This document shows, one piece after another, positions 12,044 through 35,830 of a stretch of 64,000 nt of DNA. Source of the DNA: Enterocloster lavalensis (GTDB lineage Bacteria > Bacillota > Clostridia > Lachnospirales > Lachnospiraceae); contig NZ_CABJCG010000006.1 of the NCBI RefSeq assembly GCF_902364025.1, positions 62,001-126,000 on the forward strand, written 5' to 3'. A program made the translations under genes and the position numbers. Under the pieces are notes generated by a model. The model saw only the letters and a program-made list of their open reading frames with translations, ran no database searches and was not told the DNA's origin. Numbering within the stretch: position 1 is the first letter of the stretch; each line of letters opens with the position of its first letter.

Positions 12044-12051
12044 CTATGGAT

Positions 12052-12080: not shown

Positions 12081-12110
12081 TAGCCTATTTCCTGTTTTTG
12101 ACACAGAAAT

Positions 12111-12148
12111 GCCCCCGGCCAGGACGTCTCTCTCATCCTGCCAGGGGC
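12111..12148 (-). terminator. GC-rich hairpin after the thiolase gene
   Basis: Inverted repeat GCCCCTGGCAGGA / TCCTGGCCGGGGGC (slightly imperfect) 24 bp past the thiolase stop; followed in the minus direction by ATTTCTGTG. It probably terminates the large catabolic island before the moa promoter. Confidence 0.6.
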
Positions 12149-12171
12149 TGTCTCTAAGCTCTGTTCAATTT

Positions 12172-13359
12172 TTAAACATCTGCACACTTGGTGAAGTACA
12201 TGGAGATGGCCTGTCCACCACCGATACACATGCTGATCATGGCGTCCTTCTTTTCCGTGCGCATCAGCTCGTACAGCACCTTCACCGTCAGGATCGCTCC
12301 GGTGGCTCCGATGGGATGGCCAATAGAAATGCCGCCGCCGTAAATATTCACCCTGTCTTTATCCAACCCCAAATCCCTGGCCACCGCGCAGGCCTGGCTG
12401 GCAAACGCCTCGTTGATCTCAAACATGTCCACACTTTTTAAATCGATTCCCAGCTTGACTGCCAGCTTTTCGCTGGAGAATTTGGGCGTATAGCCCATCA
12501 GCTCCGCATCAAAGCCTGCAATGGCAAAACCCCCGATCTTCAGCTTAGGCTGTACGCCCAGTTCCTTTGCCTTGTCCGCGGACATGACCACAACCGCGGC
12601 AGCTCCGTCGTTTAAGCTGGAGGAATTGCCGGCCGTAACACTGCCCCCCTTTACGAAGCAGGGGCGCAACTTTGCCAGCTTCTCGATGGTCTGCCCGTCC
12701 CTGGGGCCCTCGTCCGTATCGAACACCGTGATGTTTCCCTTCCGGTCTTTCAGCTCCACAGGAAGGATCTCATCCACGAATTTGCCTGCCTTAATAGCAG
12801 CGCACGCCTTCTGATGGCTCTCCAGGGCGAACTGGTCCTGCTCCTCCCTGGTTACGTGGTATTTTTCAGCCACGTTCTCAGCCGTAACGCCGTTGTGGTT
12901 CCCGTCCAGAGGCCAGGTCAGAATGTCGATTACTCCATCCTCAAAGTTCTTGTGACCCATACGGGCGCCCCATCTGGCGTCCTTTACATAGTAGGGCAGC
13001 TGAGAGATATTCTCCGCTCCGCCCGCCACCACCACGTCGGCCTGGCCCGTCTGGATTTCCATCACAGCGTCGGCGATGGACTGAAGGCCAGAGCCGCACT
13101 GGCGGTTCACCGAGTAGGCTGTAGCCTCTTTTGGAAGCCCTGCCTTCAGGCTGATGGCCCTGGCCACAAAGCCGTTTTCCGCAATTTGCCCCACCTGACC
13201 GATGATCACCTCGTCCACGTCGGAGGGCGCGATCCCCGCCCGGTGCACCGCTTCCTTTACCACCATTGCGCCCATGTCGATAGCGGAGATATCCTTCAGG
13301 CTGCCGCCGTAGCTTCCTACAGGAAGCCTGACCCCGCTTACAATTACAACTTCTTTCAT
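12172..13359 (-). CDS. Acetyl-CoA acetyltransferase (thiolase)
   Basis: 395 residues from MKEVVIVSGVRLPVG. The nucleophile Cys is in SVNRQCGSGLQ, the substrate His in NEAFASQA and GHPIGATGA, and the second Cys in CIGGGQA, so all catalytic residues are present. It either condenses two acetyl-CoA or cleaves a 3-ketoacyl-CoA; with the adjacent SDR, CoA-transferase and acyl-CoA synthetase, cleavage of an island-derived ketoacyl-CoA is plausible. Start chosen at 13359 because SD AGGAGGAG stands 4-5 bp upstream; a 27-bp longer frame lacks one. Last gene of the island. Confidence 0.93.
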   Translation of the reverse strand: MKEVVIVSGVRLPVGSYGGSLKDISAIDMGAMVVKEAVHRAGIAPSDVDEVIIGQVGQIAENGFVARAISLKAGLPKEATAYSVNRQCGSGLQSIADAVMEIQTGQADVVVAGGAENISQLPYYVKDARWGARMGHKNFEDGVIDILTWPLDGNHNGVTAENVAEKYHVTREEQDQFALESHQKACAAIKAGKFVDEILPVELKDRKGNITVFDTDEGPRDGQTIEKLAKLRPCFVKGGSVTAGNSSSLNDGAAAVVVMSADKAKELGVQPKLKIGGFAIAGFDAELMGYTPKFSSEKLAVKLGIDLKSVDMFEINEAFASQACAVARDLGLDKDRVNIYGGGISIGHPIGATGAILTVKVLYELMRTEKKDAMISMCIGGGQAISMYFTKCADV

Positions 13360-13386
13360 CCTGCTCCTCCTCTTCTCTTCACTCAA

Positions 13387-14127
13387 TCAGACAATCATTC
13401 CGCCGCCCACGTTGATCACTTCCGAGGTCACATACCCCGCCTCGTCCGACGCCAGAAAGGCCACCATGTTGCCCACATCCTCCGGCTTTCCGGCGTATCC
13501 GGCCGGAATTCGCTGCATCATACTCTCCCAGGCGGCTCCGTCCTTAACCTCCTTCAGCTTCAATGTCATGTCCGTCTCGATAAATCCCGGGCAGATGACG
13601 TTGCAGGTAATACCCTTACGGGCATTTTCCCTAGCCGCTGTCTTGGTCAGGCCCACCACGCCAGCCTTGGCGGCCGCATAATTGGCCTGTCCGATATTGC
13701 CAAGCCAGCTTCCTGAGGAGATGTTGATGATTCTGCCATAGCCCTTGTCCCGCATATACTTGATCGCCTCCTGAGTACCGTAGAAGGTGCCGGTCAAGTC
13801 CACGTCGATGACAATATTCCAATTTTCAACCGGCATCTTGTGCAGCATGCCGTCCCGGTTGATTCCTGCGTTATTCACCATGATATCCAGGGTTCCGTAA
13901 GTATCCACAGCGTATTTCACCAGCGCCTGGACCTCCCCCTGCCTGGCCACGTTCACCACGTAGCTTGCGGCGGTTCCGCCAAACGCCTCGATCTCCCTCA
14001 CGGTCTCCTCCGCCGGGGTCATGTCCGCAGCCACAACCTTCGCTCCCTCTTTCGCCAGCTTCACCGCGATCCCACGTCCCAGCCCTCTGCCTGCTCCTGT
14101 GACGATAGCAACCTTATTTTCCAATCT
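13387..14127 (-). CDS. SDR family 3-oxoacyl reductase (FabG/PhaB-like)
   Basis: 246 residues. N-terminal TGAGRGLGRGIA (cofactor loop), NNAG, catalytic Ser in IINISSGSWLGN and YAAAK (Tyr-x3-Lys), and a C-terminus GYVTSEVINVGGGMIV typical of acetoacetyl-CoA/ACP reductases. Position between the CoA-transferase and thiolase suggests it oxidises or reduces a 3-hydroxy/3-ketoacyl-CoA. ATG at 14127 has SD GGTGAGG. Substrate is inferred from context only. Confidence 0.88.
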   Translation of the reverse strand, partial: RLENKVAIVTGAGRGLGRGIAVKLAKEGAKVVAADMTPAEETVREIEAFGGTAASYVVNVARQGEVQALVKYAVDTYGTLDIMVNNAGINRDGMLHKMPVENWNIVIDVDLTGTFYGTQEAIKYMRDKGYGRIINISSGSWLGNIGQANYAAAKAGVVGLTKTAARENARKGITCNVICPGFIETDMTLKLKEVKDGAAWESMMQRIPAGYAGKPEDVGNMVAFLASDEAGYVTSEVINVGGGMIV

Positions 14128-14154
14128 CATAACGTCCTCACCTTTCTTTTCCAA

Positions 14155-15726
14155 TTAAAATGTCCTTTTGATCCCCACCGGACCATCGTTATACAGATTC
14201 CCGTCCATAATCTTCAGATCCCCACTGATAATCGGTTTGAAATCCATCAGATCCAGCACCTGGGTCTGCAAATCGATGCCCGGTGCGATCTCGATGAGCA
14301 TGACGCCCTGCTCCCCCAGCTTGAACACCGCCCGCTCCGTCACGATGTACACCTGCTGGCCCCTGGCTCTCGCCAGTTTGCCGTTGAAGGAATACTGGGC
14401 CACCTCAGAGACCATCTTGCGGATTTTCCCCTCATTCACGATGGTCAGCTTTCCATCCGTGAAATCAAACCCGCAGCCGCTGGCTGTAAAGGTACCACAG
14501 AACACCACCTTTTTGGCGTTCTGGGTAATATCGATAAATCCGCCGCAGCCCGTGCAGCGCACACCCATTTTCGTGGCGTTGACATTCCCCTCCCCGTCCA
14601 GCTCGCCGAAGCCCATAAAGGTCACATCCACGCCCGCTCCGTTGTAATAGTCCATCTGCTCGTGGTGCCCGATCATGGCGTAGAGGTTCTGGCCAATTCC
14701 GAAGTCGATTCCCCCGGCCTGCACGCCGCCGTAGATGCCAGACTCCACGATGATCATGATATCATCGTTTATGCCCTCCTCGTTGCAGATACTGCCGATC
14801 ACGTCGTTGGGAATACCGGTTCCCAGATTGATCACGCAGCCAGGATACACTTCCTGCACCGCTCTGCGGCCGATGAACTTTCTGACGCTCATGGGAAGGG
14901 GCTTAATCGCATTCTGCGGCACCCTGGCCTGGCCGCTGTAGGAGGGGTCGTACACCCAGGAGGAGGTCTGACGGTGGTCCACATCGGGATTCTCGCAGAC
15001 CACGATCCCATCGATGAACACGCCCGGAACCGTCACCTCCTTAGGGTTTAAGGTGCCCGTCATCACCACCCGCTTCACCTGGGCGATGACCTTTCCGCCG
15101 TAGCGCCTGGCGGCCAGCACCGCCGGCAGGATCTCCAGCTTCATGGCCTCCTCCGTGGTGGTCAGATTTCCCATCTCGTCGCACTCCGTCCCCCGGATCA
15201 GACAGACGTCGATGGGCTGCTCCTGGTAAAAGAGATACTCCTGGCCGTGGTAATCCATGACCTCCACGATATCCCCCAGAGCCTTTGTGCGGCTGTTCAT
15301 CTTGCCGCCCTCATACCGCGGGTCCACAAAGGTCCCAAGGCCTACCTTTGACATTTTCCCCGGCAGGCCGCAGGCCATGCTCCGGTAAAGCTGGGCGATC
15401 TGCCCCTGAGGCAGGCAGTAGGCTTCCACCTGATCCCGGGAGATCAGCTCCATCCAGCGGGGCTGCAGACCCCAGTGAGAGCCCACGATCCGTTTTACCA
15501 GGCCCTCGTGAGCCAGATGCTGAATCCCGTCCTTTCTGTCACTCTGCCCGCAGGAGTGAAGGAGTGTGATTCCCGCCGGATGCCCCGTCTCCAAAAACGA
15601 CTTCTCAATAGCTTTTAAAACCGCCTCGCTGGCTCCGACCAGGGTCATACCGATGGGGCAGACCGTCATACCGTCCTTTACCAGCGCGGCCGCCTGGTCC
15701 GCCGTCATAAAATTCCCTCTCATCAT
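14155..15726 (-). CDS. Acyl-CoA:carboxylate CoA-transferase (fused alpha/beta, YdiF-like)
   Basis: 523 residues, the length of single-chain family I CoA-transferases. The alpha half has TLLHSCGQSDRK and SHWGLQPRWMELI; the beta half has PGCVINLGTGIPNDVIG and the catalytic Glu in VESGIYGGVQAGG, with MGFGELDGEGNVN after it. It moves CoA between an acyl-CoA and a free acid in the cytoplasm. Together with the neighbouring acyl-CoA synthetase and thiolase it forms an acid-activation/beta-ketolysis module at the 3' end of the island. SD GGAGGA. Confidence 0.9.
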   Translation of the reverse strand: MMRGNFMTADQAAALVKDGMTVCPIGMTLVGASEAVLKAIEKSFLETGHPAGITLLHSCGQSDRKDGIQHLAHEGLVKRIVGSHWGLQPRWMELISRDQVEAYCLPQGQIAQLYRSMACGLPGKMSKVGLGTFVDPRYEGGKMNSRTKALGDIVEVMDYHGQEYLFYQEQPIDVCLIRGTECDEMGNLTTTEEAMKLEILPAVLAARRYGGKVIAQVKRVVMTGTLNPKEVTVPGVFIDGIVVCENPDVDHRQTSSWVYDPSYSGQARVPQNAIKPLPMSVRKFIGRRAVQEVYPGCVINLGTGIPNDVIGSICNEEGINDDIMIIVESGIYGGVQAGGIDFGIGQNLYAMIGHHEQMDYYNGAGVDVTFMGFGELDGEGNVNATKMGVRCTGCGGFIDITQNAKKVVFCGTFTASGCGFDFTDGKLTIVNEGKIRKMVSEVAQYSFNGKLARARGQQVYIVTERAVFKLGEQGVMLIEIAPGIDLQTQVLDLMDFKPIISGDLKIMDGNLYNDGPVGIKRTF

Positions 15727-15729
15727 GGC

Positions 15730-17355
15730 TCAGTCCTCCATTAACATTTCCTTGATCCTTCTCTTGTCCACTTTCCCGTTCAGGGTCAGCGGGATGCTCT
15801 CCACCAGCTTAATTCTGACCGGAATCTTGTATTTGGCCATCCGCTGCGCCAGATACCGCTGAATCTCCTCCGCGGTGATATGACAGCCGCTTTCCAGCTC
15901 CGCCACCGCGGCTGCGGATTCCCCGTACACCTCGTCTGGTATCCCCACCACGGCTGCGCTCTGGATTCCCTCCATGTGCTCCATCTCATTTTCCACGTCA
16001 TAGCACCAGATCTTCTCACCGCCCCGGTTGATCATATCCTTCTTGCGATCGACTATGTAGAGATACTGCTCTTCATTGAAATACCCGATGTCGCCGGTAT
16101 ACAACCAGCCATTCTCCAGCTCATTGACCGTCTTTTTATAATAGCCCTCCAGCACACAACTGCCGGACAGGGCGATTTCGCCCGGGATTCCCTGGGGAAG
16201 TTCCTTCCGGTTCTCATCCACGATCTTCACCCGGACTCCCGGAACGGGCCGCCCCGCCGCCCCGATATAAGGGCTGACCGCCGAGTCTCCCGGAAATATG
16301 GCCGCCGGGGAACTGGTCTCTGTGAGGCCGTACACGGTATGGAACTGCGCATTTGGAAGCCACCGGTGAAGCCTTCGTATTTTGTCCGCGCTCATATTCC
16401 CACTTCCGCAGGCCAGGGTAGTCAGGCTGGGAATCTCCGGCATACCCTCCCCCGCCTTTAAAATCAGGTTGAACACCGTGGGAGAGGCGTGGAAAAAGGT
16501 AAAGCCATGGATTCCGGCCTCCTGGATCACCCTGACTGCGTCGAACCGCTTGTGCAGATACAGGGTGCCTCCCGCCCGGATAAATAGACCTAAAAGGGCC
16601 ACCAGACCCGTAATGTGATAGATCGGGGTCACGATCACCGACACGTCCCGGTGGGTGACGCCCAAAATCCTGCGGTACACCTCCACGGCGTGCATAATAT
16701 TGTAATTCTTTAACAGAACGCCCTTACTCCTGGACGTGGTCCCGGAGGTAAACATGATCAGGGCTTCCTCCCCGGGCAGACCCGGCGGAAAGCTACGGAT
16801 GAAGGCGGTGTCCGGCTCACGGTTCTCCCAATTCTTGTAAAGGTGGTCAAAGCCGGTTCTCCCAATGCCTTCTGTTGACGACAGAACGCGGTCTGCCGGG
16901 TATTTCTCCAGAAACCAATCCCTGTACATTTCGTCGCAGACCACCAGCTCCACCTCCGCCTTCTCCGCCAGAGACAGCACTTCCTTCTGCTTAAATTTGC
17001 TTGGGAGCGCCACCATCACCGCGCTGATTTTAGAGAGGGCCAGAAAGGCGACGCAGTATTCCACCGTATTGTGCATCATTACACCTGCATGGGCCCCCCT
17101 TTTAAGCTTACACACACAGTACAGATAGGCCGCGAACTCCTCACAGCGCCGATAAAGCTCCCAATAGGAACACGGGGTTCCTGCGTCGTCCACCAGTGCG
17201 GTATGTTCGGGGTATCGGGAAGCGGACTCTTCCAGAGCCAGAAACAGCGTGTCCGGCCCATCCGGGAAGGTAAGCGCGGTCCGGCCCTCATGGATCCGCC
17301 TCTCCTTCATCCCTTTGGTAATCTCTCCGCCCCACAACCTGTAGCCGTCCACCAT
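15730..17355 (-). CDS. AMP-forming acyl-CoA synthetase
   Basis: 541 residues of the ANL superfamily. A3-type P-loop MFTSGTTSRSKGVLL, A5 YGLTETSSP, A7 GWLYTGDIGYF, A8 DRKKDMINRGGEKIW and A10 Lys in LTLNGKVDKRRIKEML are all present, so the enzyme should be active. Related to medium-chain or aryl acyl-CoA ligases; the acid is unknown. It lies between the IclR regulator and the CoA-transferase. A GTG 12 bp upstream is possible, but the ATG at 17355 has the better SD (GGTGAGG). Confidence 0.9.
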   Translation of the reverse strand: MVDGYRLWGGEITKGMKERRIHEGRTALTFPDGPDTLFLALEESASRYPEHTALVDDAGTPCSYWELYRRCEEFAAYLYCVCKLKRGAHAGVMMHNTVEYCVAFLALSKISAVMVALPSKFKQKEVLSLAEKAEVELVVCDEMYRDWFLEKYPADRVLSSTEGIGRTGFDHLYKNWENREPDTAFIRSFPPGLPGEEALIMFTSGTTSRSKGVLLKNYNIMHAVEVYRRILGVTHRDVSVIVTPIYHITGLVALLGLFIRAGGTLYLHKRFDAVRVIQEAGIHGFTFFHASPTVFNLILKAGEGMPEIPSLTTLACGSGNMSADKIRRLHRWLPNAQFHTVYGLTETSSPAAIFPGDSAVSPYIGAAGRPVPGVRVKIVDENRKELPQGIPGEIALSGSCVLEGYYKKTVNELENGWLYTGDIGYFNEEQYLYIVDRKKDMINRGGEKIWCYDVENEMEHMEGIQSAAVVGIPDEVYGESAAAVAELESGCHITAEEIQRYLAQRMAKYKIPVRIKLVESIPLTLNGKVDKRRIKEMLMED

Positions 17356-17375
17356 ACTAATCCTCACCCCTGCTT

Positions 17376-18119
17376 CTAGCAGCCCAGTTCTCTGCTAATT
17401 TTCGCGGCCGCCCTGCTTAGCTTATCCACATACCCTTTTACCTTATGATCCGGCATCTGGCTGGCCAGAAGGGAGATACCGATGCTGTAGCGCACTTGGT
17501 TTCCATAGCTGAAAATGGGCACTGCCACGCAACGGATTCCCACGGACACCTCCTCGTCATCCAGGGCGTATCCCTGCCGCTTGATTTTGGCCAGTTCCCG
17601 CATCAGGGAGTCCTGGTCCTGAATCGTTTTCTCTGTGAATTTCACAAAATCGTAGTGGTTCAGCATCTGCCTCAGGGAGTGCTCCGGGCGATAGGCCAGG
17701 ATACATTTTCCCACAGAGGAGGCGTGCATGGGCTCGATCATACCGATGGTCGCAGAGATGGAATATCCCGAGTCCCGGACCACCTGGTCGATCACATACG
17801 CCATGGTATTGTTAAATGCGCACAGGTGGACATTTTCGCTTAGCTTCTCGGAAACATCCCTTAAGATCGGCCGTGCGATATCAATGATGTTCAAATTTTT
17901 TTCCAGTGTCTTTCCAAAATGAAGAACTCTGAAACCCATCCTGTACTTTTTGGTGCTCTTGTTGAGCTGAACCATATCGTGCTGGCGCAGGGTCTCCACC
18001 AGCCGGGAGACCGTGCTTTTGTCCACGTCCAGCATATCAGCCAGCTCCGTAATGGACATTTCCGTCTGTTCGGACAAAATCTCTAAAATCCGAAGTCCTC
18101 TGTCCAATGCCTGAACCAT
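17376..18119 (-). CDS. IclR family transcriptional regulator
   Basis: 247 residues. N-terminal winged helix: VQALDRGLRILEILSE, then the helix-turn-helix MSITELADMLDVDKSTVSRLVETLRQHDMV. The C-terminal effector domain has MEPMHASSVGKCILAYRP and DDEEVSVGIRCVAVPIFSYG, the usual small-molecule pocket motifs. Encoded inside the island between the RpiB-like isomerase and the acyl-CoA synthetase, it is the natural candidate to bind the two GTTGCG-N5-CGCAAC palindromes found upstream of the two island promoters. Confidence 0.93.
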   Translation of the reverse strand: MVQALDRGLRILEILSEQTEMSITELADMLDVDKSTVSRLVETLRQHDMVQLNKSTKKYRMGFRVLHFGKTLEKNLNIIDIARPILRDVSEKLSENVHLCAFNNTMAYVIDQVVRDSGYSISATIGMIEPMHASSVGKCILAYRPEHSLRQMLNHYDFVKFTEKTIQDQDSLMRELAKIKRQGYALDDEEVSVGIRCVAVPIFSYGNQVRYSIGISLLASQMPDHKVKGYVDKLSRAAAKISRELGC

Positions 18120-18134
18120 GTAATCTCACCTTTC

Positions 18135-18764
18135 TCACTTTAATATCTGGCAGATTTCCGCAGCCAGCCGGTTGTCCCGGCCGTGCGCCTCCAATACCGC
18201 CAGAAAATCTTTGCGCCTGCGGATTGACTCTAAGGCCGCCGGGTCCAGATCTCTCAAACTATCCGCCAAAGGCTTGTGGGACTGTGCAGAGATGCCCTTT
18301 AACAGCTCCCTGCTGCTGCCCTGGCTCTCCGCCCGCTCTCTGGGATATCCCTGGCCCGCCGGGTCCTGGAACAGCCGCTCAAAAATGTATTTCAGATTTA
18401 CGTTGGCCGCCCACCCATAGCCCTTGTTCAGCGCCAGGGAGATACAGTTTCCGCCGTTGATTTGTGAAAAGAGCCAAGCGTCCAGCGGCTCTTGAACCAG
18501 CCCGCAGAACACGCCAGGAAACTGCATCACCACGTTCAAATAGCCCTGGCCCGTGCCGCAGCCGCCCACCACCATATCGCAGATTCCACAGTTTAACAGG
18601 ATTGCGCTCATGATACCCGTCTGGATGTAGGTGATGGGGTTTTCCTCGGAGGGGTCCTTCATGCCCAGATTGAGAATTTCCAGACCGTCAAAGGGCTCCA
18701 GTGCCTTCAAAATGTCCTGATTTCTGGCGCACGCGCTCACTTCATTCACAATTCCAATTCTCAT
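18135..18764 (-). CDS. RpiB/LacAB-family sugar-phosphate isomerase-like protein
   Basis: 209 residues. MRIGIVNEVSACARNQDI at the start, and MVVGGCGTGQGYLNV in place of the usual GSGNG loop, with Cys67-region residues typical of RpiB catalysis; about 60 extra C-terminal residues compared with ~150-residue RpiB. Members interconvert aldose and ketose phosphates. Within the island it could isomerise the product of the FGGY kinase. The start is one base after the Gfo/Idh stop (TGAC ATG), so it is translationally coupled. Function beyond the family is unknown. Confidence 0.75.
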   Translation of the reverse strand: MRIGIVNEVSACARNQDILKALEPFDGLEILNLGMKDPSEENPITYIQTGIMSAILLNCGICDMVVGGCGTGQGYLNVVMQFPGVFCGLVQEPLDAWLFSQINGGNCISLALNKGYGWAANVNLKYIFERLFQDPAGQGYPRERAESQGSSRELLKGISAQSHKPLADSLRDLDPAALESIRRRKDFLAVLEAHGRDNRLAAEICQILK

Positions 18765-18765
18765 G

Positions 18766-19890: not shown

Positions 19891-19918
19891 TTTTGCTACC
19901 TCCTGTTTTGATGTGTGG

Positions 19919-21727: not shown

Positions 21728-21770
21728 AAGATTTTCCTCCAATTCTTTGATTGCCTTCCGACCGCCCTCT

Positions 21771-22535: not shown

Positions 22536-22572
22536 CTTTTCTCTCCTTCTGAAATGCCTCTCTTTGATTATA

Positions 22573-22601
22573 ACTATAGGCATACTTTCCGCCGTTTTCA
22601 A
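22573..22601 (-). promoter_or_regulatory. Internal promoter of the catabolic island
   Basis: Minus strand: -35 TTGAAA (22596-22601), 17-bp spacer, -10 TATAGT (22573-22578). It drives the SDR-TPP-Gfo-RpiB-IclR-acyl-CoA genes. The palindrome at 22619-22635 ends exactly 17 bp upstream of its -35 box, as at the second island promoter. Confidence 0.7.
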
Positions 22602-22618
22602 TTTGTTATGCAGCACTC

Positions 22619-22635
22619 GTTGCGCATTACGCAAC
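22619..22635. promoter_or_regulatory. Predicted IclR-type operator, copy 1
   Basis: GTTGCG-CATTA-CGCAAC, a perfect 6-5-6 palindrome 17 bp upstream of a -35 box. An identical-arm copy is at 35588-35604. I saw no third copy in the window. Confidence 0.7.
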
Positions 22636-22671
22636 ACATGTTGTTTATTAGTCTAATTAGCTAAATTTTTT

Positions 22672-23685: not shown

Positions 23686-23695
23686 CCGACACACC

Positions 23696-24505: not shown

Positions 24506-24509
24506 GTCC

Positions 24510-25973: not shown

Positions 25974-26011
25974 AAATCTATCCTCCGTTATATGATTTGC
26001 GCCCCAGCCTG

Positions 26012-27388: not shown

Positions 27389-27397
27389 GCCACACTC

Positions 27398-28333: not shown

Positions 28334-29199
28334 GATTTTATTCCTCCCCGCAGATATTCGTTCCACAAGATTCCGGCCTGGCTCCCCGGGCCGTCCCCCT
28401 CCGGGAAATGGCATTGCCGGGGCGTGTATTCATACAGTAGGCGGGATATGGCCAGCTCCGGAAAGCGATTATTCCCATCCCAGTTCAGACACATCTCATT
28501 CGGGCACTTCCCATCCGGGCTCATCCCGCCTGAACGCTTCCCTGTTAAACATTCCCGGACCGGTCTCCACATCTCCGCCTCTTGGTTTTGCACCGCAAGC
28601 TTCTCCCGCAGGGTGGCTGCCCGCAAAAAGGCGTGAACTCTGTCCCCCACGGCGCATACGGCCCGGCCCTTTACCTGAAGAGAGGCGCTTCCCCTGTCCG
28701 TGTCCATCTGCACGGACAGCCCCCGCTCTACCACGGACAGGTCCGTCACATTTGAAAGGCAGGGGCAGTCCAGCATCTGCGCCAGCAGGACCGGCGTCTG
28801 CCCGTGCTCCTCCGGTTCGTCCTGCATACCGGTCAGAATCAGATCGCCGCCCGTGGCCCTGATATATCCGGCCAGCAGGGCCGCTTCCTCCATAGGCTTA
28901 TTCCGGCCGGGCATGTTTGCCTCCAGGACCGTTACCCCGGAGAAACCGACCGCGTACAGGTTTTTGACAGTTCCGCCATCCACAGCGTCCATTGTCACCG
29001 CCACGGTTTCGCATTCCATTCCCGCACGCCGGACCTCATCCGCCGCCCACAGGGCGGTCTCCAGCGCCGCCTCGTCCCAGCTTCCGATGCCCCGCCGGAA
29101 TACGGACAGGTTCAGGGCCCTGTCCCGCAGCAAAAACAGTTCCTCCGGTGTGATCTGTTCCAGGTCATACTCCATTTTAAAGCAAGCAATAATCCGCAT
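28330..29199 (-). CDS. Electron transfer flavoprotein beta subunit-like (set 2, divergent)
   Basis: 289 residues. Begins RIIACFKMEYDLEQITPEEL and keeps the EtfB layout (WDEAALETALWAADEVRRAG; NKPMEEAALLAGYIRATGGDLILTGMQ; LLAQMLDCPCLSNVTDL), but the AMP/FAD-loop ADGETAQVGP of set 1 is replaced by DEPEEHGQTP. Start ATG at 29199 is one base after the GldA-like stop. Coupled to the EtfA-like gene by a 4-bp overlap. The divergence suggests a dedicated, non-housekeeping Etf. Confidence 0.8.
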   Translation of the reverse strand: MRIIACFKMEYDLEQITPEELFLLRDRALNLSVFRRGIGSWDEAALETALWAADEVRRAGMECETVAVTMDAVDGGTVKNLYAVGFSGVTVLEANMPGRNKPMEEAALLAGYIRATGGDLILTGMQDEPEEHGQTPVLLAQMLDCPCLSNVTDLSVVERGLSVQMDTDRGSASLQVKGRAVCAVGDRVHAFLRAATLREKLAVQNQEAEMWRPVRECLTGKRSGGMSPDGKCPNEMCLNWDGNNRFPELAISRLLYEYTPRQCHFPEGDGPGSQAGILWNEYLRGGIKS

Positions 29200-29200
29200 T

Positions 29201-30286
29201 CTAAAAGCGTTCTCCCAGAGAGTCCACAGTTTTAAGGGCAGCCACAATCATCTCCTCGTCCAGAGGGAAGGCGTGGTTCGTAAGCGGCTTCGGCCGCTCC
29301 AAAGCGCGCCTTGCCACCTTGCAGAGCTTCGTCTCCACAGGCTCTGCGATTCCGATCCCGGCCAGGGTGGTGGGCAGCCCCACCCGGCGGTAATAATCCA
29401 TCACCGTGCGAAGCTCCTCCTCCGGCGCGTTCTCCAGTATCAGCTGGACTAACAGGCCGATGGCTACCTTCTCGCCGTGCATGGCCCCGTGGGTCTCCTC
29501 CAGCACGGTCAGGGCGTTATGGATGCCATGGGCCGCCGCGCAGCCTACACTCTCAAATCCGATTCCGCTGAGATAAAGATTAGCCTCGATGATATTTTCC
29601 AGGGCAGGCGTCACTACGCTGTGCTCACACGCCTCCAGTGCCTTCACGCTGTCCTCCAAAAGGACGTCGCGGCACAGCCGGGCCATTTGCCAGGCGGCCT
29701 GGGTATAGAGCCCGCCCGCGTAGTTGAACGCGCAGCTTCGCACACAGGCCCGGGCCTCGTAGTAGGTCGCGAAGGCGTCGCCCATGCCCGCCACCAGAAA
29801 ACGTTTGGGCGCGTTTGCAATCACCTCCGAGTCCGCAAGCACAATATCCGGGCTCTTAACCATGGTCTCGCTTCCGATCATCACATGGTCGTCGCTGTAC
29901 AGAATCAGCAGCGCACTACAGGGCGCGTCGGTGGAGGCGATGGTAGGCACGATAATCAGGGGCTTATTGACCCGTCTGGATACCGCCTTGGCCGTGTCCA
30001 GAGCCTTGCCTCCTCCCAGTCCCACGATCACGTCAAATGCCTCTCCCTGGCATTCGCGGATGATCCGGTCAATCTCTGACATACAGCACTCCCCGCAAAA
30101 TCCGGTCTCCACAAAGCCCACGCCGGAGCGCGCCGCCTTGTCCAGTCCATACCGGACGCGCTCCGCGTCCTCCTTCAGCGCGATCAAAAGCGCCTTACCT
30201 CCATAGGGAAGAATGTATTCCGACAGATTGCCGATCTCCCCCCGTCCCACTATAAATTTCCCCGGTGTCCTGAGAATCCGTTTCAT
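29201..30286 (-). CDS. GldA-like iron/zinc alcohol dehydrogenase
   Basis: 361 residues. VIVGLGGGKALDTAKAV binds NAD; IVPTIASTDAPCSALLILYSDD is nearly diagnostic for glycerol dehydrogenase; metal ligands lie in AGMGDAFATYYEAR (Asp), AAHGIHNALT (His) and THGAMHGEKVAIG (His). It should oxidise a vicinal diol to a hydroxyketone with NAD+, or the reverse. Start at 30286 (SD GAGGAGGAG). The hairpin at 30332-30357 separates it from the FAD oxidase upstream. Substrate may be a glycerol-like polyol. Confidence 0.9.
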   Translation of the reverse strand: MKRILRTPGKFIVGRGEIGNLSEYILPYGGKALLIALKEDAERVRYGLDKAARSGVGFVETGFCGECCMSEIDRIIRECQGEAFDVIVGLGGGKALDTAKAVSRRVNKPLIIVPTIASTDAPCSALLILYSDDHVMIGSETMVKSPDIVLADSEVIANAPKRFLVAGMGDAFATYYEARACVRSCAFNYAGGLYTQAAWQMARLCRDVLLEDSVKALEACEHSVVTPALENIIEANLYLSGIGFESVGCAAAHGIHNALTVLEETHGAMHGEKVAIGLLVQLILENAPEEELRTVMDYYRRVGLPTTLAGIGIAEPVETKLCKVARRALERPKPLTNHAFPLDEEMIVAALKTVDSLGERF

Positions 30287-30331
30287 TGCTACTCCTCCTC
30301 GCATCAAATCGTCATTGTTCCATTGATCAGT

Positions 30332-30357
30332 TGCACCGGCTGTTTTCAGTCGGTGCA
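30332..30357 (-). other. Intercistronic hairpin between FAD oxidase and GldA-like gene
   Basis: Stem TGCACCGACTG/CAGCCGGTGCA (one G-U pair) with a 4-nt loop, in the 93-bp gap. No U-tract follows on the minus strand, so partial termination or an mRNA stability element is more likely than a full stop. Confidence 0.5.
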
Positions 30358-30379
30358 CTCAGGGTTCCTGTGAACGATT

Positions 30380-31822
30380 TTACTTTTTTGCCACCAGGGC
30401 TCCAGGGTTCATGATGCCGTTGGGGTCCATCATCTCTTTTAAGCTGCGAATCAGTTCATAGGAATTTCCGTGCTCGCGCTCCGCCAGGTGCAGGCGCATT
30501 TTGCCCATACTGTGGTGATGTACGCAGCTGCCGGTGGGCAGTTTTAGCACCTCGTCGCAGATGGCGTCGATAATTCTGCGATGCTCCCCTAGATACGCCT
30601 CAGGGGAGAACACCTTGAATTCATATACAAAATAAATGTTCGTGCCGTTCTGATAACTGTGGGACACGTGTCCGCCGAACACGGTCAGATTGTCGATCTC
30701 TCTGGGCAGCCGCTCCATAACATTTTTGTATATTTCCTGAATATCCGTCCAGCTGGCGGAAATCTCTGTGGTGGCGTAAAAGGTCTTTTTCTGGCGGTAT
30801 CCCTCCCGCCGCTTCTCGGTCCCGAAAATCGCGCAGCGGTCATTGCGGTGCTTCAGCCAGTGGGCCACCGCCTCAGTTCCCACATAGCGTCCGCCTCTCT
30901 CCCTGGCGATGCGGTCGATGCCGCTTCCCACAGCCCGGGCAACCTCCCCGGGACCTTCGGCCGTAAAGAACATAAAAGCCTCGCCCTCGTTCAGCTCGAT
31001 GCTGCCGAAGTTGTAGTCGAAATCGGGCTTGTCGTACAGGCGGACCACAGAGGGCTTGTATCCGGCCGTAATGATCTCGCGGCAGGCCTCAAGGCCCTCC
31101 CCGAAGCTCTTCATCACATATCCGCCCAGCCACATATCTTCCGGATAGTAGCGGAAAATCTTTACCGTGACCTCCGTGACAAAGGCCAGTGCGCCCTCAC
31201 AGCCCAGGAACAGATGGCGCAGATCCGGGCCCGCCGCTCTCCGGGGCACATTGCGGATCCGAACCACTTTTCCGTCGGGCAAAACCGCCTCCAGGCCGCA
31301 GAGCAGATCCTCGATACCTCCGTAATAGGTGGAGAACTGTCCGATGCTGCGGGTTGCCACCAGCCCACCCATCTGAGCCAGCGGCTGGGACTGGGGGCTG
31401 TGTCCGGTGGTATATCCCTGGGCCTGAAGCAGTTCCTCCAGCGCGATCAGCGGAACGCCGCACTGGCAGGTTGCCATCATGTTGTCATAGTCAATCTTAA
31501 TGATCTCCTTCATCCCGGAGGCGTCGATGACGATACAGTCCCCGTCCACCGCCGTGAGAAGCAGCTCGTAGGAAGAGGAGCCGGTGCGTGGGATCACGCC
31601 CACCCCGTTCTCATTACAGTACACAAGGGCCTTTGCTACCTCACCTGTGGAACATACATTCAGAATGCACATGGGCAACGGGCTTAAAAATGCGCCGAAG
31701 GCCTTTGCGTAGACATTGTTGTCCCCGTCGTAGTTCATTACCGCATTTTCCTCAGTGATCACCCTGGACTCCCCGAATAATCCCCTCAGATCCGTCAAAA
31801 CCTGCTCTCTCGTCTTTTTCAT
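30380..31822 (-). CDS. FAD-binding oxidase, alkyl-DHAP synthase-like
   Basis: 480 residues. FAD domain (1-210) with NGVGVIPRTGSSSYE, TGHSPQSQPLAQMGGLVATRSIGQFSTYYGGIEDLLCG and FLGCEGALAFVTEVTVKI; the C-terminal domain ends with GSCVHHHSMGKMR and MDPNGIMNPGAL. The HHHSMG stretch and the ATRSIGQFSTYYGG stretch are typical of the AGPS-like branch rather than GlcD. Cytoplasmic flavoenzyme, likely a 2-hydroxy-acid or polyol oxidising dehydrogenase feeding an Etf. Follows the permease by 19 bp. SD GAGGGAGG. Confidence 0.85.
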   Translation of the reverse strand: MKKTREQVLTDLRGLFGESRVITEENAVMNYDGDNNVYAKAFGAFLSPLPMCILNVCSTGEVAKALVYCNENGVGVIPRTGSSSYELLLTAVDGDCIVIDASGMKEIIKIDYDNMMATCQCGVPLIALEELLQAQGYTTGHSPQSQPLAQMGGLVATRSIGQFSTYYGGIEDLLCGLEAVLPDGKVVRIRNVPRRAAGPDLRHLFLGCEGALAFVTEVTVKIFRYYPEDMWLGGYVMKSFGEGLEACREIITAGYKPSVVRLYDKPDFDYNFGSIELNEGEAFMFFTAEGPGEVARAVGSGIDRIARERGGRYVGTEAVAHWLKHRNDRCAIFGTEKRREGYRQKKTFYATTEISASWTDIQEIYKNVMERLPREIDNLTVFGGHVSHSYQNGTNIYFVYEFKVFSPEAYLGEHRRIIDAICDEVLKLPTGSCVHHHSMGKMRLHLAEREHGNSYELIRSLKEMMDPNGIMNPGALVAKK

Positions 31823-31841
31823 ACTTGCTTTTCCTCCCTCA

Positions 31842-32789
31842 TTATCTTTTCCGCTTACGGTCCATAAACACTGCTACAATAATAATCAGTCCCTGTATAA
31901 TCTGCTTGTAGAACGTGGAGACGTGCATGAGATCCAGACCGTTGCTGATCACGCCCATGATCAGCGTTCCGACCAGGGCGCCGAATACGGTTCCAACGCC
32001 GCCTGCAAAGCTGGTTCCGCCGATTACGGAGGCGGAGATGGCTTCCAGCTCGTAACCCTGGCCGATGCCGGGCTGTCCCGACTGCACACGGGCTGCCAAC
32101 ACAAGACCGGAAACGCCTACCAGGACGCCGTGGATCAAATAAATCTTGATCTTGCACCAGTCCACGTTGATGCCGGACAGTCGGGCCGCCTCCTGGTTGC
32201 CGCCGATGGCGTATGTATAACGGCCCAGGCGGGTTTTGTTTAAAAAGACCCAGGCGAATATAATCGCTATGGCATATACATACACAGACGAGGGAATCCC
32301 CAGCCAGGAACCGCTGCCGAATTTCACGAAGGACTCGGGAAGGCTGCCGATGGGCATGCCGTTGGACCAGATCAGCGTGACTCCGCGGACTACCTGGGCC
32401 ACGCCCAGGGTCACAATAAAGGCTGGCAGTTTTCCCTTTGCCACGATGGTGCCGGTAATGGCGGAGACAACCACGGACACCGCAATACCCGCGAGCAGGG
32501 CCACCGGAACGGACATACCCCACTGCCCCATGGCCAAGGCCGCCACAACACCGGTCAGCGCCAGAGTGGAGCCAGCCGCCAGGTCGTTATTTCCACTGAT
32601 TACCAGAAACGTCATTCCCAGTGCCAGGATACCGTTGGTGGACACCTGCCGCAGGATGATGATGGCGTTGCGCGCGGTAAAGTACGTGTCCGTGGTGAGG
32701 GAAAAGAAAATACACAGCAGTAACAGTACATATATCGTAATTCGGTTTCGATTAAAAAGAAATTGCCTAATCTTGCTTGTATTATCCAT
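31842..32789 (-). CDS. Ribose-type ABC transporter permease
   Basis: 315 residues with 8-10 hydrophobic segments. NGILALGMTFLVISGNNDLAAGSTLALTGVVAA and GRYTYAIGGNQEAARLSGINV are RbsC-family motifs; SASVIGGTSFAGGVGTVFGALVGTLIMG is the conserved cytoplasmic loop region. It forms the inner-membrane channel with the neighbouring ATPase and binding protein. Start at 32789 has SD AGGGAG; a possible ATG at 32831 overlaps the ATPase stop without a site. Confidence 0.93.
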   Translation of the reverse strand: MDNTSKIRQFLFNRNRITIYVLLLLCIFFSLTTDTYFTARNAIIILRQVSTNGILALGMTFLVISGNNDLAAGSTLALTGVVAALAMGQWGMSVPVALLAGIAVSVVVSAITGTIVAKGKLPAFIVTLGVAQVVRGVTLIWSNGMPIGSLPESFVKFGSGSWLGIPSSVYVYAIAIIFAWVFLNKTRLGRYTYAIGGNQEAARLSGINVDWCKIKIYLIHGVLVGVSGLVLAARVQSGQPGIGQGYELEAISASVIGGTSFAGGVGTVFGALVGTLIMGVISNGLDLMHVSTFYKQIIQGLIIIVAVFMDRKRKR

Positions 32790-32820
32790 CAGATCACTCC
32801 CTATCAGAATCGATTTTCTA

Positions 32821-34308
32821 TTAGAATGCATATTGCAGGATCAGCTCCTGGGTGGCCTCCTCCCGGGCCAGCTCTCCCTTGACCCTGCCCTCTTTCAGCA
32901 CAAGAATCCTATCGCTCATCCCCATAACTTCCGCCATTTCAGACGAAATCATAATGATGCCCTTGCCCTCCTGAGCAAGCTTTGAAATCATCAGATGGAT
33001 CTCCGATTTGGTCATAACGTCGATTCCCCGCGTGGGCTCGTCCAAAATAATGATATTTGGATCTGTAAACAATGCCTTTGCCACAACCACCTTCTGCTGG
33101 TTGCCGCCTGACAGGGAATTCACAGGGTTCCGAAAATCAGAGGTTTTGATCTGGACCTGCTCGATCTTTTCCTGTGCGTTCTTCTGCTCCTTGGCCTTGC
33201 TGATCAAAATCCCCGTCTGACACTTGTCGATCCGGGACATGATTATATTGTCCAGGATACTCAGCTTCAGCACCACACCATGGTTCTTCCGGTCCTCCGG
33301 CACCATGGCGATGTGATTTTTAATCGCATCCTCAGGAGAATCGATCCGAACCTTTTTGCCTTCGATCAGGATCTCCCCCGCGGTCTTGGGGCGCGCCCCA
33401 TATATGGCCTCCGCCACCTCCGTGCGACCGGCGCCCATCAGGCCAGCCAGCCCCAGGATCTCCCCCTTGTGAAGGGTGAAGCTCACGTCGTTTACGTCCT
33501 CAGCGCAGAGCCCCCGAACCTCCAGAAGGGGCTCCCCGATCTCAGCCTCCAGCTTCGGGAATATCTCCGTCACCTCCCGGCCCACCATCATAGAGATCAG
33601 CTTCTGCTTGTCGATCTCCTTCAAATCTCCGCTTCCGATGAAATTTCCGTCGCGCAGCACGGTCACGCTGTCACAGATCTGGTAAATCTCATCCAGCTTG
33701 TGGGAGATATAGATAATCGTAACCTGCCGTTTTCTGAGGATCCCGATGGTTTTAAAGAGCTTTTCCACCTCGATGTCCGATAGGGCACTGGTAGGCTCGT
33801 CCATAATCACGATGTCCGCGTCGTAGGATACAGCTTTGGCGATCTCCGCCAACTGGGTGCGGGCCACGGAAAGCTCGCTCATCATAGCTCTGGGAGGCAG
33901 ATCCAGGTCCAGGGACTGGTAGAACTCGGCCGCCTTCTGATACATTGTTTTGTGATCTACCAAATTCAGTCCCAGATAGCGTTTCATCGGCTCACGCCCC
34001 AGATACATGTTCTCGGCCACGGTCATCTTTTCGATGGGATTGAGTTCCTGATGGATCATGGAGATACCCGCATCCAGAGCGTCCTGTGTGGACTTGAACT
34101 GTGTTTTCTCCCCACGGAGGTAAATCTCGCCCTCCACCGGCTGGTAAATGCCCTGGAGAATTTTCATCAACGTGGATTTTCCCGCTCCGTTCTCCCCCAT
34201 TAGGGCGTGCACCTCGCCTTTTTTCACCTTCAAATGTACGTTTTTCAGCGCCTGAACGCCGCCAAAATTCATGGATATATTTCTCATATCCAGGATATAA
34301 TCTGACAA
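32821..34308 (-). CDS. Ribose-type ABC transporter ATPase (two nucleotide-binding domains)
   Basis: 495 residues, RbsA/MglA layout. Domain 1: GENGAGKSTLMKIL, LSVARTQLAEIAKAV, IVIMDEPTSAL. Domain 2: GLMGAGRTEVAEAIYG (degenerate Walker A as usual), SGGNQQKVVVAKALF, IILDEPTRGIDV. Both signatures are present. The reading frame opens with TTG at 34308 behind a strong SD (GGGAGGAAAT), so a TTG start is proposed. Energises uptake of a sugar-like solute; specificity lies in the binding protein. Confidence 0.93.
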   Translation of the reverse strand: MSDYILDMRNISMNFGGVQALKNVHLKVKKGEVHALMGENGAGKSTLMKILQGIYQPVEGEIYLRGEKTQFKSTQDALDAGISMIHQELNPIEKMTVAENMYLGREPMKRYLGLNLVDHKTMYQKAAEFYQSLDLDLPPRAMMSELSVARTQLAEIAKAVSYDADIVIMDEPTSALSDIEVEKLFKTIGILRKRQVTIIYISHKLDEIYQICDSVTVLRDGNFIGSGDLKEIDKQKLISMMVGREVTEIFPKLEAEIGEPLLEVRGLCAEDVNDVSFTLHKGEILGLAGLMGAGRTEVAEAIYGARPKTAGEILIEGKKVRIDSPEDAIKNHIAMVPEDRKNHGVVLKLSILDNIIMSRIDKCQTGILISKAKEQKNAQEKIEQVQIKTSDFRNPVNSLSGGNQQKVVVAKALFTDPNIIILDEPTRGIDVMTKSEIHLMISKLAQEGKGIIMISSEMAEVMGMSDRILVLKEGRVKGELAREEATQELILQYAF

Positions 34309-34332
34309 AGTATTTCCTCCCTTCCCAGAAGC

Positions 34333-35364
34333 TTACTTTAAGTACTTATTGAGAATGGCATCGCGCTCCTCGGCAGTGGCCAGGAAGTCATCGATAGAAT
34401 CCGCGTCAATACGGATGAACTCCACAAACTTATCTTCGACCTGTTTTCCCTCGATGGCGTCGATGGCAAGACGGACGCCCCACTCCCCCTGCTCCAAGGC
34501 ATTCTGGTCAAAGGTGACTGCAATTTTGCCGGCCTTGACCATGTTCAGGGCATCGGCGATGGCGTCGATGCCCACCACCTGGATCTGACCGGTCTTACCG
34601 GAGGCCTCGATGGCGTTGGCCGCTCCCATCGCTATGGTGTCGTTGTTGCAGACAATGGCGTCCAGATCCATGTCGGACTGGATCCAGTTCTCCGTGATCG
34701 TCTGGGCGATGTCTGTCTTCCACTTGCTGTCCTGATCCGCCACGATCTTAGCCCCCTCGGTGGCGTTCACAACATCCTGATAAGCCGCCCATCTGGTCAC
34801 CTGCGCGGAGTGTCCCAGTGTTCCGTGCAGCACGGCCACGTTGCCGGTGCCACCGATCAGCTCCAGGGCCGCCTGCATCTGGAGCGTGCCCGCCTCATAG
34901 TCGTCTGCTCCCACATGGGCGGTGACCAGGTCCTGGTTTTCCACCATGGTATTCACCGTGATCACCGGAATACCTGCATCCACACATGCCTGGATACATG
35001 GGGCGGAACCCACCTTGTCCACAGGGTTGATGACGATAGCTGCGGCGCCGTCGGAAATCATGGTCTCCACCTGGCTGACCTGCAGGTCGGCTTTCTGCTC
35101 CGCGTTCAGGATCACTACCTCATACTGATCCGGCAACTCACCATCGGCGTAGCTTTGGATACCCGCCATCATGTAGAGCGGGAACGCCGACTGTAAATTC
35201 TGCAGGCTGACTCCAATTTTAATTTTGCCTCCCCCGCTGGCCTGGATGTCTGCCTGCGTGTCCGAGGACTGCTCCGCTGCCTTTTTGCTGCCGCAACCTG
35301 CCATGGCAGAAATAGCAAGTACCAGACTAAGCCCCAATGCAACCATCTTTTTCACGTTTTTCAT
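34333..35364 (-). CDS. Ribose-type substrate-binding lipoprotein
   Basis: 343 residues. Signal peptide and lipobox MAGC (Cys24). Periplasmic-binding-protein type 1 fold: KIGVSLQNLQSAFPLYMMAGIQSYADG, ISDGAAAIVINPVDKVG, VTAHVGADDYEAGTLQMQAA, DAIVCNNDTIAMGAANAIEASGK and VVGIDAIADALNMVKAG. Closest in style to ribose/allose/inositol binding proteins; the ligand is not deducible. First gene of the island. Start at 35364 with SD AAAAGGAGAGG; the longer frame reads into the leader. Confidence 0.93.
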   Translation of the reverse strand: MKNVKKMVALGLSLVLAISAMAGCGSKKAAEQSSDTQADIQASGGGKIKIGVSLQNLQSAFPLYMMAGIQSYADGELPDQYEVVILNAEQKADLQVSQVETMISDGAAAIVINPVDKVGSAPCIQACVDAGIPVITVNTMVENQDLVTAHVGADDYEAGTLQMQAALELIGGTGNVAVLHGTLGHSAQVTRWAAYQDVVNATEGAKIVADQDSKWKTDIAQTITENWIQSDMDLDAIVCNNDTIAMGAANAIEASGKTGQIQVVGIDAIADALNMVKAGKIAVTFDQNALEQGEWGVRLAIDAIEGKQVEDKFVEFIRIDADSIDDFLATAEERDAILNKYLK

Positions 35365-35430
35365 GGTAATACCTCTCCTTTTTGTGTTGTTTGCTCGTTG
35401 GGATTTTATCACCGGCTCTATGCGGGACCT

Positions 35431-35529
35431 TCAGTGCGCGGCAATGGATGGCGCCCCTACTTTCCCTGCCCGCTTTGGGAATACAACATCCCTGGTCTCC
35501 TCCCACATATCGCCAAAAATCCGGGTCAT
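35431..35529 (-). CDS. Possible 32-codon leader ORF
   Basis: ATG at 35529 to TGA at 35431, in the 5' leader of the island mRNA (begins MTRIFGDMWEETRD). There is no Shine-Dalgarno and the ATG lies only about 6 nt past the predicted transcription start, so it would be leaderless. Codon choice looks gene-like, but chance is likely. No family recognised. Confidence 0.2.
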   Translation of the reverse strand: MTRIFGDMWEETRDVVFPKRAGKVGAPSIAAH

Positions 35530-35541
35530 CTTGATGATTTT

Positions 35542-35570
35542 AGTTTAATCGTTATATTGCAACCATTCAA
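35542..35570 (-). promoter_or_regulatory. Main promoter of the catabolic island
   Basis: Minus strand: -35 TTGAAT (35565-35570), 17-bp spacer, -10 TAAACT (35542-35547). The palindrome at 35588 begins after exactly 17 bp, the same geometry as at the internal promoter 22573-22601. Confidence 0.6.
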
Positions 35571-35587
35571 GCAAGTCGTGAACCTCC

Positions 35588-35604
35588 GTTGCGCGATACG
35601 CAAC
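35588..35604. promoter_or_regulatory. Predicted IclR-type operator, copy 2
   Basis: GTTGCG-CGATA-CGCAAC, perfect 6-5-6 palindrome with the same arms as 22619-22635, 17 bp upstream of the island's main -35 box. Confidence 0.7.
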
Positions 35605-35713
35605 AACTGTTTGAATTTAGGCAAAAATGACAAGATTATGTCACTCTTTTTATATATTATGCCTCATTTTATGAATAACTGATTGTCGACATCCATGTTC
35701 CGTTGGGAGTAAC

Positions 35714-35769: not shown

Positions 35770-35830
35770 TGAATGCAATAGGCCACTGACACAGCCTGTT
35801 GATTGCGTTGATTGTTTTACCGATACCCTC

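Follow-up and report, generated by a model that had tools for sequence, protein, structure and literature searches.

A 23.7-kb island in the genome of Enterocloster lavalensis was gained or lost as a single block, and its core is by sequence comparison a distant, GldA-type relative of the E. coli ygc locus. The island lies in a 64,000-nucleotide stretch (assembly GCF_902364025.1, contig NZ_CABJCG010000006.1, positions 62,001 to 126,000), which we call the window and whose numbering is used throughout. The core consists of an AGPS-like oxidase, a divergent pair of electron transfer flavoproteins (Etf), a GlcD-like dehydrogenase, and an FGGY kinase. Because its main flavoenzyme is most similar to the ether-lipid-forming enzyme, the island may break down glycerol-ether compounds.

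The ygc-type core and its AGPS-like flavoenzyme

The relation to ygc, which the initial annotation of this DNA from its letters alone did not notice, emerges from protein comparisons. E. coli YgcE matches the island kinase at 49% identity over 480 amino acids (aa) and YgcU the AGPS-like oxidase at 44% over 487 aa, while YgcQ and YgcR match the second Etf pair (EtfA2, 32%; EtfB2, 29%). YgcW is 39% identical to SDR1, a short-chain dehydrogenase/reductase (SDR). The ygc-type half and its importer, in order of transcription, are as follows (PDB, Protein Data Bank).

34333..35364, minus strand: CUT2 lipoprotein, substrate-binding; PF13407; best PDB match 4yo7 (1.8e-51), next 5hko, 4rs3, and 4rsm
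32821..34308, minus strand: CUT2 importer ATPase; PF00005 in two stretches
31842..32831, minus strand: CUT2 importer permease; PF02653
30380..31822, minus strand: AGPS-like flavoenzyme, YgcU family; 44% to YgcU; best PDB match of the family profile AGPS (1.5e-69)
29201..30286, minus strand: GldA-like glycerol dehydrogenase; NF006941 445 bits, cut-off 336
28330..29199, minus strand: EtfB of set 2, YgcR type; 29% to YgcR; PDB matches weak, best 1.5e-6
27398..28333, minus strand: EtfA of set 2, YgcQ type; 32% to YgcQ
26012..27388, minus strand: GlcD/LctD-like flavin adenine dinucleotide (FAD) dehydrogenase; best PDB matches of the profile D-lactate dehydrogenase (1e-40) and LctD (6e-38)
24510..25973, minus strand: FGGY kinase, YgcE type; 49% to E. 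coli YgcE; conserved R, W, D-K signature
23696..24505, minus strand: EtfB of set 1, bifurcating type by sequence; PDB 4kpu (6e-52), CarD (4e-44), LctB (2e-42)
22672..23694, minus strand: EtfA of set 1; PF01012, PF00766

The kinase, the AGPS-like flavoenzyme, and the divergent Etf pair are common to the island and to E. coli ygc (ygcN-O-P, ygcQ-R-S-U-W, yqcE-ygcE). Only E. coli has the SDR YgcW, the transporters YgcS and YqcE, YgcP, and YgcN/YgcO, whereas GldA, the CUT2 importer, GlcD, the second Etf pair, and a half with a thiamine pyrophosphate (TPP) enzyme and acyl-CoA genes belong to the island alone. Where anaerobes have GlcD, E. coli has YgcN and YgcO, whose annotations are FAD/NAD(P)-binding oxidoreductase and 4Fe-4S protein. 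No protein in the window is at least 50% identical to YgcW, and GldA is present; SDR1 is probably not a YgcW orthologue, falling outside the 18-row YgcW group (support 94/93) on a long branch whose placement is unsure. Three YgcP queries gave no tblastn match at 1e-15 in window 9001-39000, and the island regulator is of the IclR family.

The E. coli locus is widespread within its species: the 5.4-kb ygcU-ygcE DNA matches 5,350 of 5,426 genomes, and in 5,005 the match covers 80% or more of the stretch. When species genomes were scanned with the GlcD family, 18 loci emerged, and seven of these hold the AGPS-like, Etf, GlcD, and FGGY kinase genes together (L013, L014, L016, L017, L018, L022, and L025; hosts Planctomycetaceae, Geosporobacter, Desulfopila, Sporomusa, a Firmicutes metagenome-assembled genome, and two Deltaproteobacteria). 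Close relatives of the island GlcD are few, with three listed at 61% identity or more (itself included) and the next at 40% among 7,992 candidates scored from a database of 5.8 billion proteins.

The profile of the AGPS-like family finds guinea pig AGPS (1.5e-69) and Dictyostelium AGPS (7.5e-66) ahead of glycolate oxidase (1e-43) and LctD (2e-31), and the island GlcD shows the opposite pattern (D-lactate dehydrogenase, 1e-40; AGPS, 4e-12). The His triad H435-437, Y397, and R261 are invariant in 17 of 17 AGPS-like sequences aligned; glycolate oxidase 9qgz has EHG at the position of the triad. The columns in which PDB 4bca (Tyr578Phe mutant) and 4bc7 (Arg419His) depart from wild type likewise fall on residues invariant in all 17. 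A study of Dictyostelium AGPS names three residues as important, R352 and Y508 among them (PMC3509576); counted along the profile alignment, both are kept, as R261 and Y397 of the window protein. Around R447 the alignment has gaps; the window protein and its E. coli counterpart have an Arg close by, and not all relatives do. The island protein thus has in common with AGPS/ADPS of eukaryotic ether-lipid synthesis the fold, the catalytic Tyr, Arg419/R352, and the His triad; unlike AGPS, it is encoded next to a kinase and Etf genes in a catabolic cluster, and R447 is not conserved in all its relatives. As the residues kept are those of an enzyme that makes and breaks C-O bonds on dihydroxyacetone phosphate, a plain polyol-oxidizing role for this protein seems less likely.

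The predicted model has a VAO-type fold with an FAD domain (pLDDT, 77.7; pTM, 0.78). Foldseek ranks 1 to 29 are all AGPS, VIA-align scores D-lactate dehydrogenase similarly, and the two methods disagree on the top row; comparing folds does not tell AGPS and D-lactate dehydrogenase apart. In the AGPS-like tree, which is in effect unrooted because its outgroups are too distant, the window protein belongs to a branch of 5 rows (100/99) apart from a 20-row YgcU branch (100/100), within which clusters having BCCT, OpuC-type, ProX-type, and MFS transporters are mixed.

In the FGGY kinases the active-site R, W, and D known from glycerol kinase are preserved, Lys stands at the position of Gln246, and Tyr135 is missing. 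The acceptor is therefore more likely to be a glycerol-like compound than glycerol itself. As for the flavoproteins, Etf set 1 is by its sequence of the bifurcating kind and set 2 divergent. The initial annotation had proposed Etf-linked flavoenzymes with an LctD-like partner for the bifurcating-type Etf, and the matches bear this out: GlcD is LctD-like (6e-38) and EtfB1 resembles 4kpu and CarD as well as LctB (2e-42) of the Acetobacterium lactate dehydrogenase-Etf LctBCD (7qh2). Unlike in LctBCD, the island GlcD and Etf set 1 genes are separated by the kinase gene, and the likeness is known from sequence only.

The island as a unit and its TPP/acyl-CoA half

In the nearest genome compared (G001), only about 110 bp stand where the window has 12084-35826. 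The flanks align with 92.7 to 95.7% identity, in five pieces that cover window 1-12083 and 35827-47924. Because this near-empty site stands between well-aligned flanks, the island is one physical unit, as the initial annotation had supposed in calling it one catabolic unit with limits of 12172-35604, drawn from sequence alone and within 88 and 222 bp of the edges found here. Two further small gaps occur in the same alignment (window 7895-8382 and 38935-39080), and the G001 stretch compared stops aligning past window 47924. The GC content is 57.3% within the island and 59.3/59.1% outside. The kinase is rare around the island (12 of 392 genomes of the order at E ≤ 1e-90), as are the AGPS-like gene (3 of 398 genomes of the phylum at E ≤ 1e-100) and the TPP gene (none of 17 genomes of the genus at E ≤ 1e-80); G001 has no match to the kinase or the AGPS-like gene. 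This rarity favors gain rather than loss. A search of the window gave no tRNA gene, and the longest direct repeat common to both island ends is 10 bp, so a mobile-element reading was dropped.

The 20 minus-strand genes span window 12172-35364, each with a match to a family. The widest intergenic gap (136 bp) lies at the joint of SDR1 and EtfA1; other neighbors are closer or overlap slightly. These figures depend on gene starts picked by ribosome-binding site, which shortens several open reading frames, among them those of the FGGY kinase, EtfA2, EtfB2, GldA, SDR1, the TPP enzyme, the Gfo/Idh protein, and the thiolase. For the IclR and EtfB1 genes the first start has no ribosome-binding site under the rule used, and later starts would still keep the gaps below 136 bp. 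The roughly 20 close-set genes and families first named were thus all recovered, and the lipoprotein kept its coordinates of 34333-35364 after start choice. In gene order EtfA1 is followed by the second half, listed here with the edge features.

21771..22535, minus strand: SDR1, KduD-like; TIGR01832 270 bits, cut-off 339; 39% to YgcW
19919..21727, minus strand: TPP enzyme, acetolactate-synthase family; catalytic Glu present, unlike glyoxylate carboligase
18766..19890, minus strand: Gfo/Idh/MocA dehydrogenase; PF01408; IolG model 141 bits, cut-off 355
18135..18764, minus strand: RpiB-family isomerase nearest DhuI; NF006753 210 bits, cut-off 137; PDB 4u8e (gbs1892), E 4.5e-49
17376..18119, minus strand: IclR regulator; PF01614, PF09339
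15730..17367, minus strand: acyl-CoA synthetase; PF00501, PF13193
14155..15726, minus strand: fused CoA-transferase, FadX-like; PF01144; FadX model 424 bits, below cut-off 750
13387..14154, minus strand: SDR2, FabG-like 3-oxoacyl reductase family; NF004198 303.7 bits, cut-off 296
12172..13359, minus strand: thiolase, BktB-like; PF00108/PF02803; BktB model 477 bits, below cut-off 565; TIGR01930 441.5 bits, above cut-off 240.55
12084..12171, minus strand: terminator-like hairpin 3' of the last gene; RNA fold -34.9 kcal/mol, z -4.44
35718..35765, no strand: 20-pair inverted repeat (hairpin) at the right edge, found in the sequence
12084..35826, no strand: whole island, unit of gain or loss, missing from G001

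This second half lies outside the conserved core, and at the loci compared it was not seen adjoining ygc-type clusters. The initial annotation had expected the whole gene order to be conserved; only the AGPS-like, Etf, GlcD, and FGGY kinase genes together with a dehydrogenase recur, and a close TPP gene was found in none of the 17 genus and none of the 392 order genomes at the limits used. It is worth weighing whether two independent pathways travel together, the ygc-type half (22672-31822 plus the importer) and the TPP/Gfo-Idh/DhuI/acyl-CoA half (12172-22535), each with its own substrate. The halves do occur apart. The two phylum genomes with a close TPP gene (G542 and G760, of 398) are not among the three that carry the AGPS-like gene, and the GldA-type genomes G490, G808, and G809 have the ygc-type half and no close TPP gene, their best TPP-family matches (37%, 29%, and 32% identity) lying on other contigs or about 0.7 Mb from the kinase and none on the ygc-type contig stretch. 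The TPP family is also large, with 3,685 homologues at E ≤ 1e-100 among 7,996 scored, against the three listed GlcD proteins, and the widest gap of the island falls at the joint of the halves. Three plasmid-borne TPP relatives from Thalassospira and Ensifer (L107, L108, and L109; 42 to 43%) adjoin histidinol-dehydrogenase-like (HisD-like) and GMC oxidoreductase genes, another uncharacterized context. On the other hand, the island is a single gain/loss unit with one importer, one regulator, one strand, and short gaps. In addition, a GlcD relative (P0003, 61%) and a TPP relative (P0069, 88%) have the same longest contig figure of 32,263 bases, which suggests that they may share one contig elsewhere. 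We consider two separate pathways unlikely, although the two halves may be joined in this lineage only.

For the individual enzymes of this half, a role of the TPP enzyme as glyoxylate carboligase was rejected, as it keeps the catalytic Glu where the E. coli carboligase has Val. The RpiB-like protein is nearest to gbs1892, which is DhuI, an isomerase acting on nonphosphorylated keto-uronates (PMC6837340). The order "phosphorylated, then isomerized" first suggested for the island is thus not the best one. SDR1 is KduD-like, which adds to the likeness to the streptococcal DhuI/DhuD uronate pathway; unlike that pathway, the 20 island genes include by Pfam no KDG kinase, KDPG aldolase, or lyase.

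A variant catabolism of inositol or another cyclitol, with the ygc genes as accessories, is suggested by the matches of the Gfo/Idh and TPP proteins to IolG and IolD models (141 and 310 bits) and by the best match of the binding protein, 4yo7, whose ligand is myo-inositol. Those scores are far under the cut-offs of 355 and 715, though, acetolactate-synthase models outscore IolD for the TPP enzyme, none of the 20 genes is of the IolB type by Pfam, and no IolE-like gene was seen. With model scores too low and companion genes missing, the inositol pathway was rejected, and a cyclitol variant seems improbable. The inositol-to-propionate pathway of Anaerostipes has a CoA-transferase, Etf genes, and an inositol-dehydrogenase-like gene in common with the island; its oxcT-ecdH-acaD genes include an acyl-CoA dehydrogenase and an enoyl-CoA hydratase, neither of which is among the island Pfam matches, and the part of the account available mentions no YgcE or YgcU type (PMC8355322).

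Outside the island, a small dispersed repeat lies at window ~38922-38994, short parts of which match 11 more places in G001 at 76 to 91% identity. By eye, window 39111-64000 resembles a selenium-/molybdenum-dependent purine-degradation region (SelD-, SufS-, xanthine-dehydrogenase-, YgfK-, SsnA-, and YgeX/Y-like proteins).

Dehydrogenase and transporter partners of ygc-type clusters

Loci fetched with their annotation or by place were counted in one tblastn census, with a limit of at least 50% identity for YgcW. Duplicates (L050, L051, L021, L086, and L088) and short loci repeating longer ones (L032-L041, L043, L044, L063-L065, L069-L071, and L077-L084) were dropped beforehand. The L048 kinase (41%) is under the 45% limit and was counted anyway, because an FGGY kinase next to the oxidase is annotated in its record; in L042, L052, L053, L056, and L061 the oxidase gene was beyond the fetched stretch or not found. 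The G490 genes, on two contigs (L066 and L085), were taken as one cluster. For the GC-rich loci L013, L019, L020, and L025 tblastn was used because longest-open-reading-frame frames were wrong there.

The census covers 29 clusters that include a YgcE-type kinase. YgcW is present in 24 of them, one (L061) is cut by a contig end, and four have GldA: those of the window, Planctomycetaceae L013 (where the GldA gene is oppositely oriented and several kilobases off), G490, and Deltaproteobacterium L022. No cluster had both dehydrogenases in the stretches compared, unless one accepts SDR1, at 39%, as the equivalent of YgcW. Transporters of the BCCT or glycine-betaine (OpuAC) type lie within the fetched stretch of 19 of the 25 YgcW-type clusters, the BCCT gene of L048 and the OpuAC genes of L016 being on the opposite strand, and of none of the four GldA-type clusters, whose importers are CUT2 (two) and BMP-type (one). 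The YgcW-type clusters with neither transporter in the stretch fetched are those of E. coli, L025, L042 (truncated), Ilyobacter, Streptomyces, and Priestia. Pfam checks agreed for five of five BCCT proteins, two OpuAC, one glycerol-3-phosphate (G3P) antiterminator, and two MttB. Across 14 genomes with 15 clusters, 12 of 27 BCCT genes are within 10 kb of a kinase against 0.18 expected (binomial, 1e-19, which is not a true probability, as the genomes were picked for holding the cluster and are related); two of the 14 have no BCCT gene.

The YgcP-type regulator is a G3P-antiterminator protein (by Pfam in L014 and by annotation in L046, L047, and L050). Two of these clusters are on megaplasmids of 0.9 to 1 Mb in Enterococcus raffinosus (L046) and E. 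gilvus (L050), which also carry an osmoprotectant ABC transporter there. MttB-type methyltransferases occur near four YgcW-type clusters (L014, L016, L017, and L025), for example at L014 17918-20685 (Geosporobacter, also with a corrinoid protein, a pterin-binding enzyme, and an octopine-dehydrogenase-like protein), L017 16816-21014 (Sporomusa), and L025 2042-7949 (Deltaproteobacterium). A third group (L092 3724-15062, L093, L094, L020, and L024) has AGPS-like, GlcD, and mostly Etf genes beside DUF1667 and/or GlpK-like FGGY genes, with DAO and Pyr_redox proteins confirmed beside the AGPS-like gene of L092; these neighborhoods appear to resemble glp operons.

The same neighborhoods bear on whether an ether bond is involved at all. 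The initial annotation had a polyol or sugar acid oxidized by Etf-linked flavoenzymes, and the AGPS-like protein could simply dehydrogenate a phosphorylated polyol or hydroxy-ketone and feed the electrons to Etf set 2. Its gene adjoins or is near Etf genes in most relatives, AGPS itself works without net redox change (PMC3509576), D-lactate dehydrogenase folds score equally well, the CUT2 binding protein is nearest to sugar/polyol binders, and the kinase comes from a sugar-kinase family. Such a role fits less well with the residues specific to AGPS (His triad, Tyr, and Arg), which do not vary across the 17 sequences, with the quaternary-ammonium transporters beside the same kinase type, which are ill-suited to a plain sugar, and with clusters of Streptomyces, Vibrio, and Priestia plasmids in which no annotated Etf gene is listed. 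The Etf-linked flavoenzymes of the early proposal stand; plain polyol oxidation became less likely given the AGPS residues, and we regard it as possible, if somewhat doubtful.

A proposed route of ether cleavage

We tentatively favor instead, as a reading still well short of probable, that a glyceryl ether is oxidized, phosphorylated, and split by the AGPS-like enzyme, with the remainder of the island processing the freed part. Four observations suggest a glyceryl part and dihydroxyacetone phosphate chemistry: the apparent YgcW/GldA swap, an antiterminator of the G3P type, the neighbors in the third group that resemble glycerol operons, and the AGPS-type residues. From these we infer substrates, step order, and the fate of the freed part. 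The CUT2 importer would take up a neutral glyceryl ether (glycerol-O-X), GldA would turn the middle hydroxyl into a ketone, and the YgcE-type kinase would phosphorylate the free end to give X-O-dihydroxyacetone phosphate. The AGPS-like flavoenzyme would then cleave the C-O bond via flavin-bound dihydroxyacetone phosphate, yielding X-OH and triose phosphate, so that the net scheme would be ether-lipid synthesis in reverse. Etf set 2 would accept electrons if the split is oxidative, and GlcD with Etf set 1 would make up another unit, similar to LctBCD and acting on a 2-hydroxy acid. The Gfo/Idh protein, the isomerase resembling DhuI, SDR1, and the TPP enzyme could convert X to an acid, which the CoA-transferase or synthetase would activate, SDR2 oxidize, and thiolase cleave to acyl-CoAs.

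In the window type, X is probably neutral, because the importer is of the CUT2 family and its binding protein is nearest to 4yo7, 5hko, 4rs3, and 4rsm, matches which also agree with the polyol- or sugar-type import proposed at the outset. One paper took ribitol and xylitol coordinates from a four-entry set that includes 4RS3 (PMC10935332). In the YgcW-type branch, by contrast with the neutral X of the window, X would bear a trimethylammonium group, and the nearby MttB-type genes would fit its later demethylation. The betaine-lipid head group glyceryl-trimethylhomoserine is a trimethylammonium glyceryl ether of this kind. The chief weakness of the ether-cleavage scheme is the Etf linkage: a redox-neutral AGPS has no need of an Etf, unlike an enzyme that splits the ether oxidatively or acts as a plain dehydrogenase.

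The initial annotation knew of no described pathway with this exact set, and none was found in the open-licence literature among the best-ranked matches on the ygc genes (the best 40 of 114 in one case), on betaine-lipid head-group catabolism (the best 15 of 45), and on AGPS with Etf. Among the matches on the ygc genes no paper assigns the locus a function. In enterohemorrhagic E. coli, D-serine slightly induces ygcU, and ygcU deletion leaves the D-serine effect studied in place, according to a 2026 report (PMC13012123).

It is conceivable, though rather doubtful, that the whole ygc family, that of E. coli included, carries out catabolic ether cleavage by kinase, C2 dehydrogenase, and AGPS-like flavoenzyme as a reversal of the peroxisomal ether-lipid route. 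The YgcW branch would then take trimethylammonium glyceryl ethers such as glyceryl-trimethylhomoserine, and the GldA branch of this island would take a neutral one, with genes of its own for the freed part.

Taken together, the convergent transporter partners (BCCT, OpuC-type, and ProX-type) and the apparent swap of two unrelated dehydrogenases make two proposals testable for a locus that almost all E. coli carry: that its substrates are quaternary ammonium compounds containing a glyceryl part, and that its chemistry is C-O cleavage of the AGPS type. If true, bacteria of gut and sediment would have one more way to degrade ether-linked glycerol compounds.

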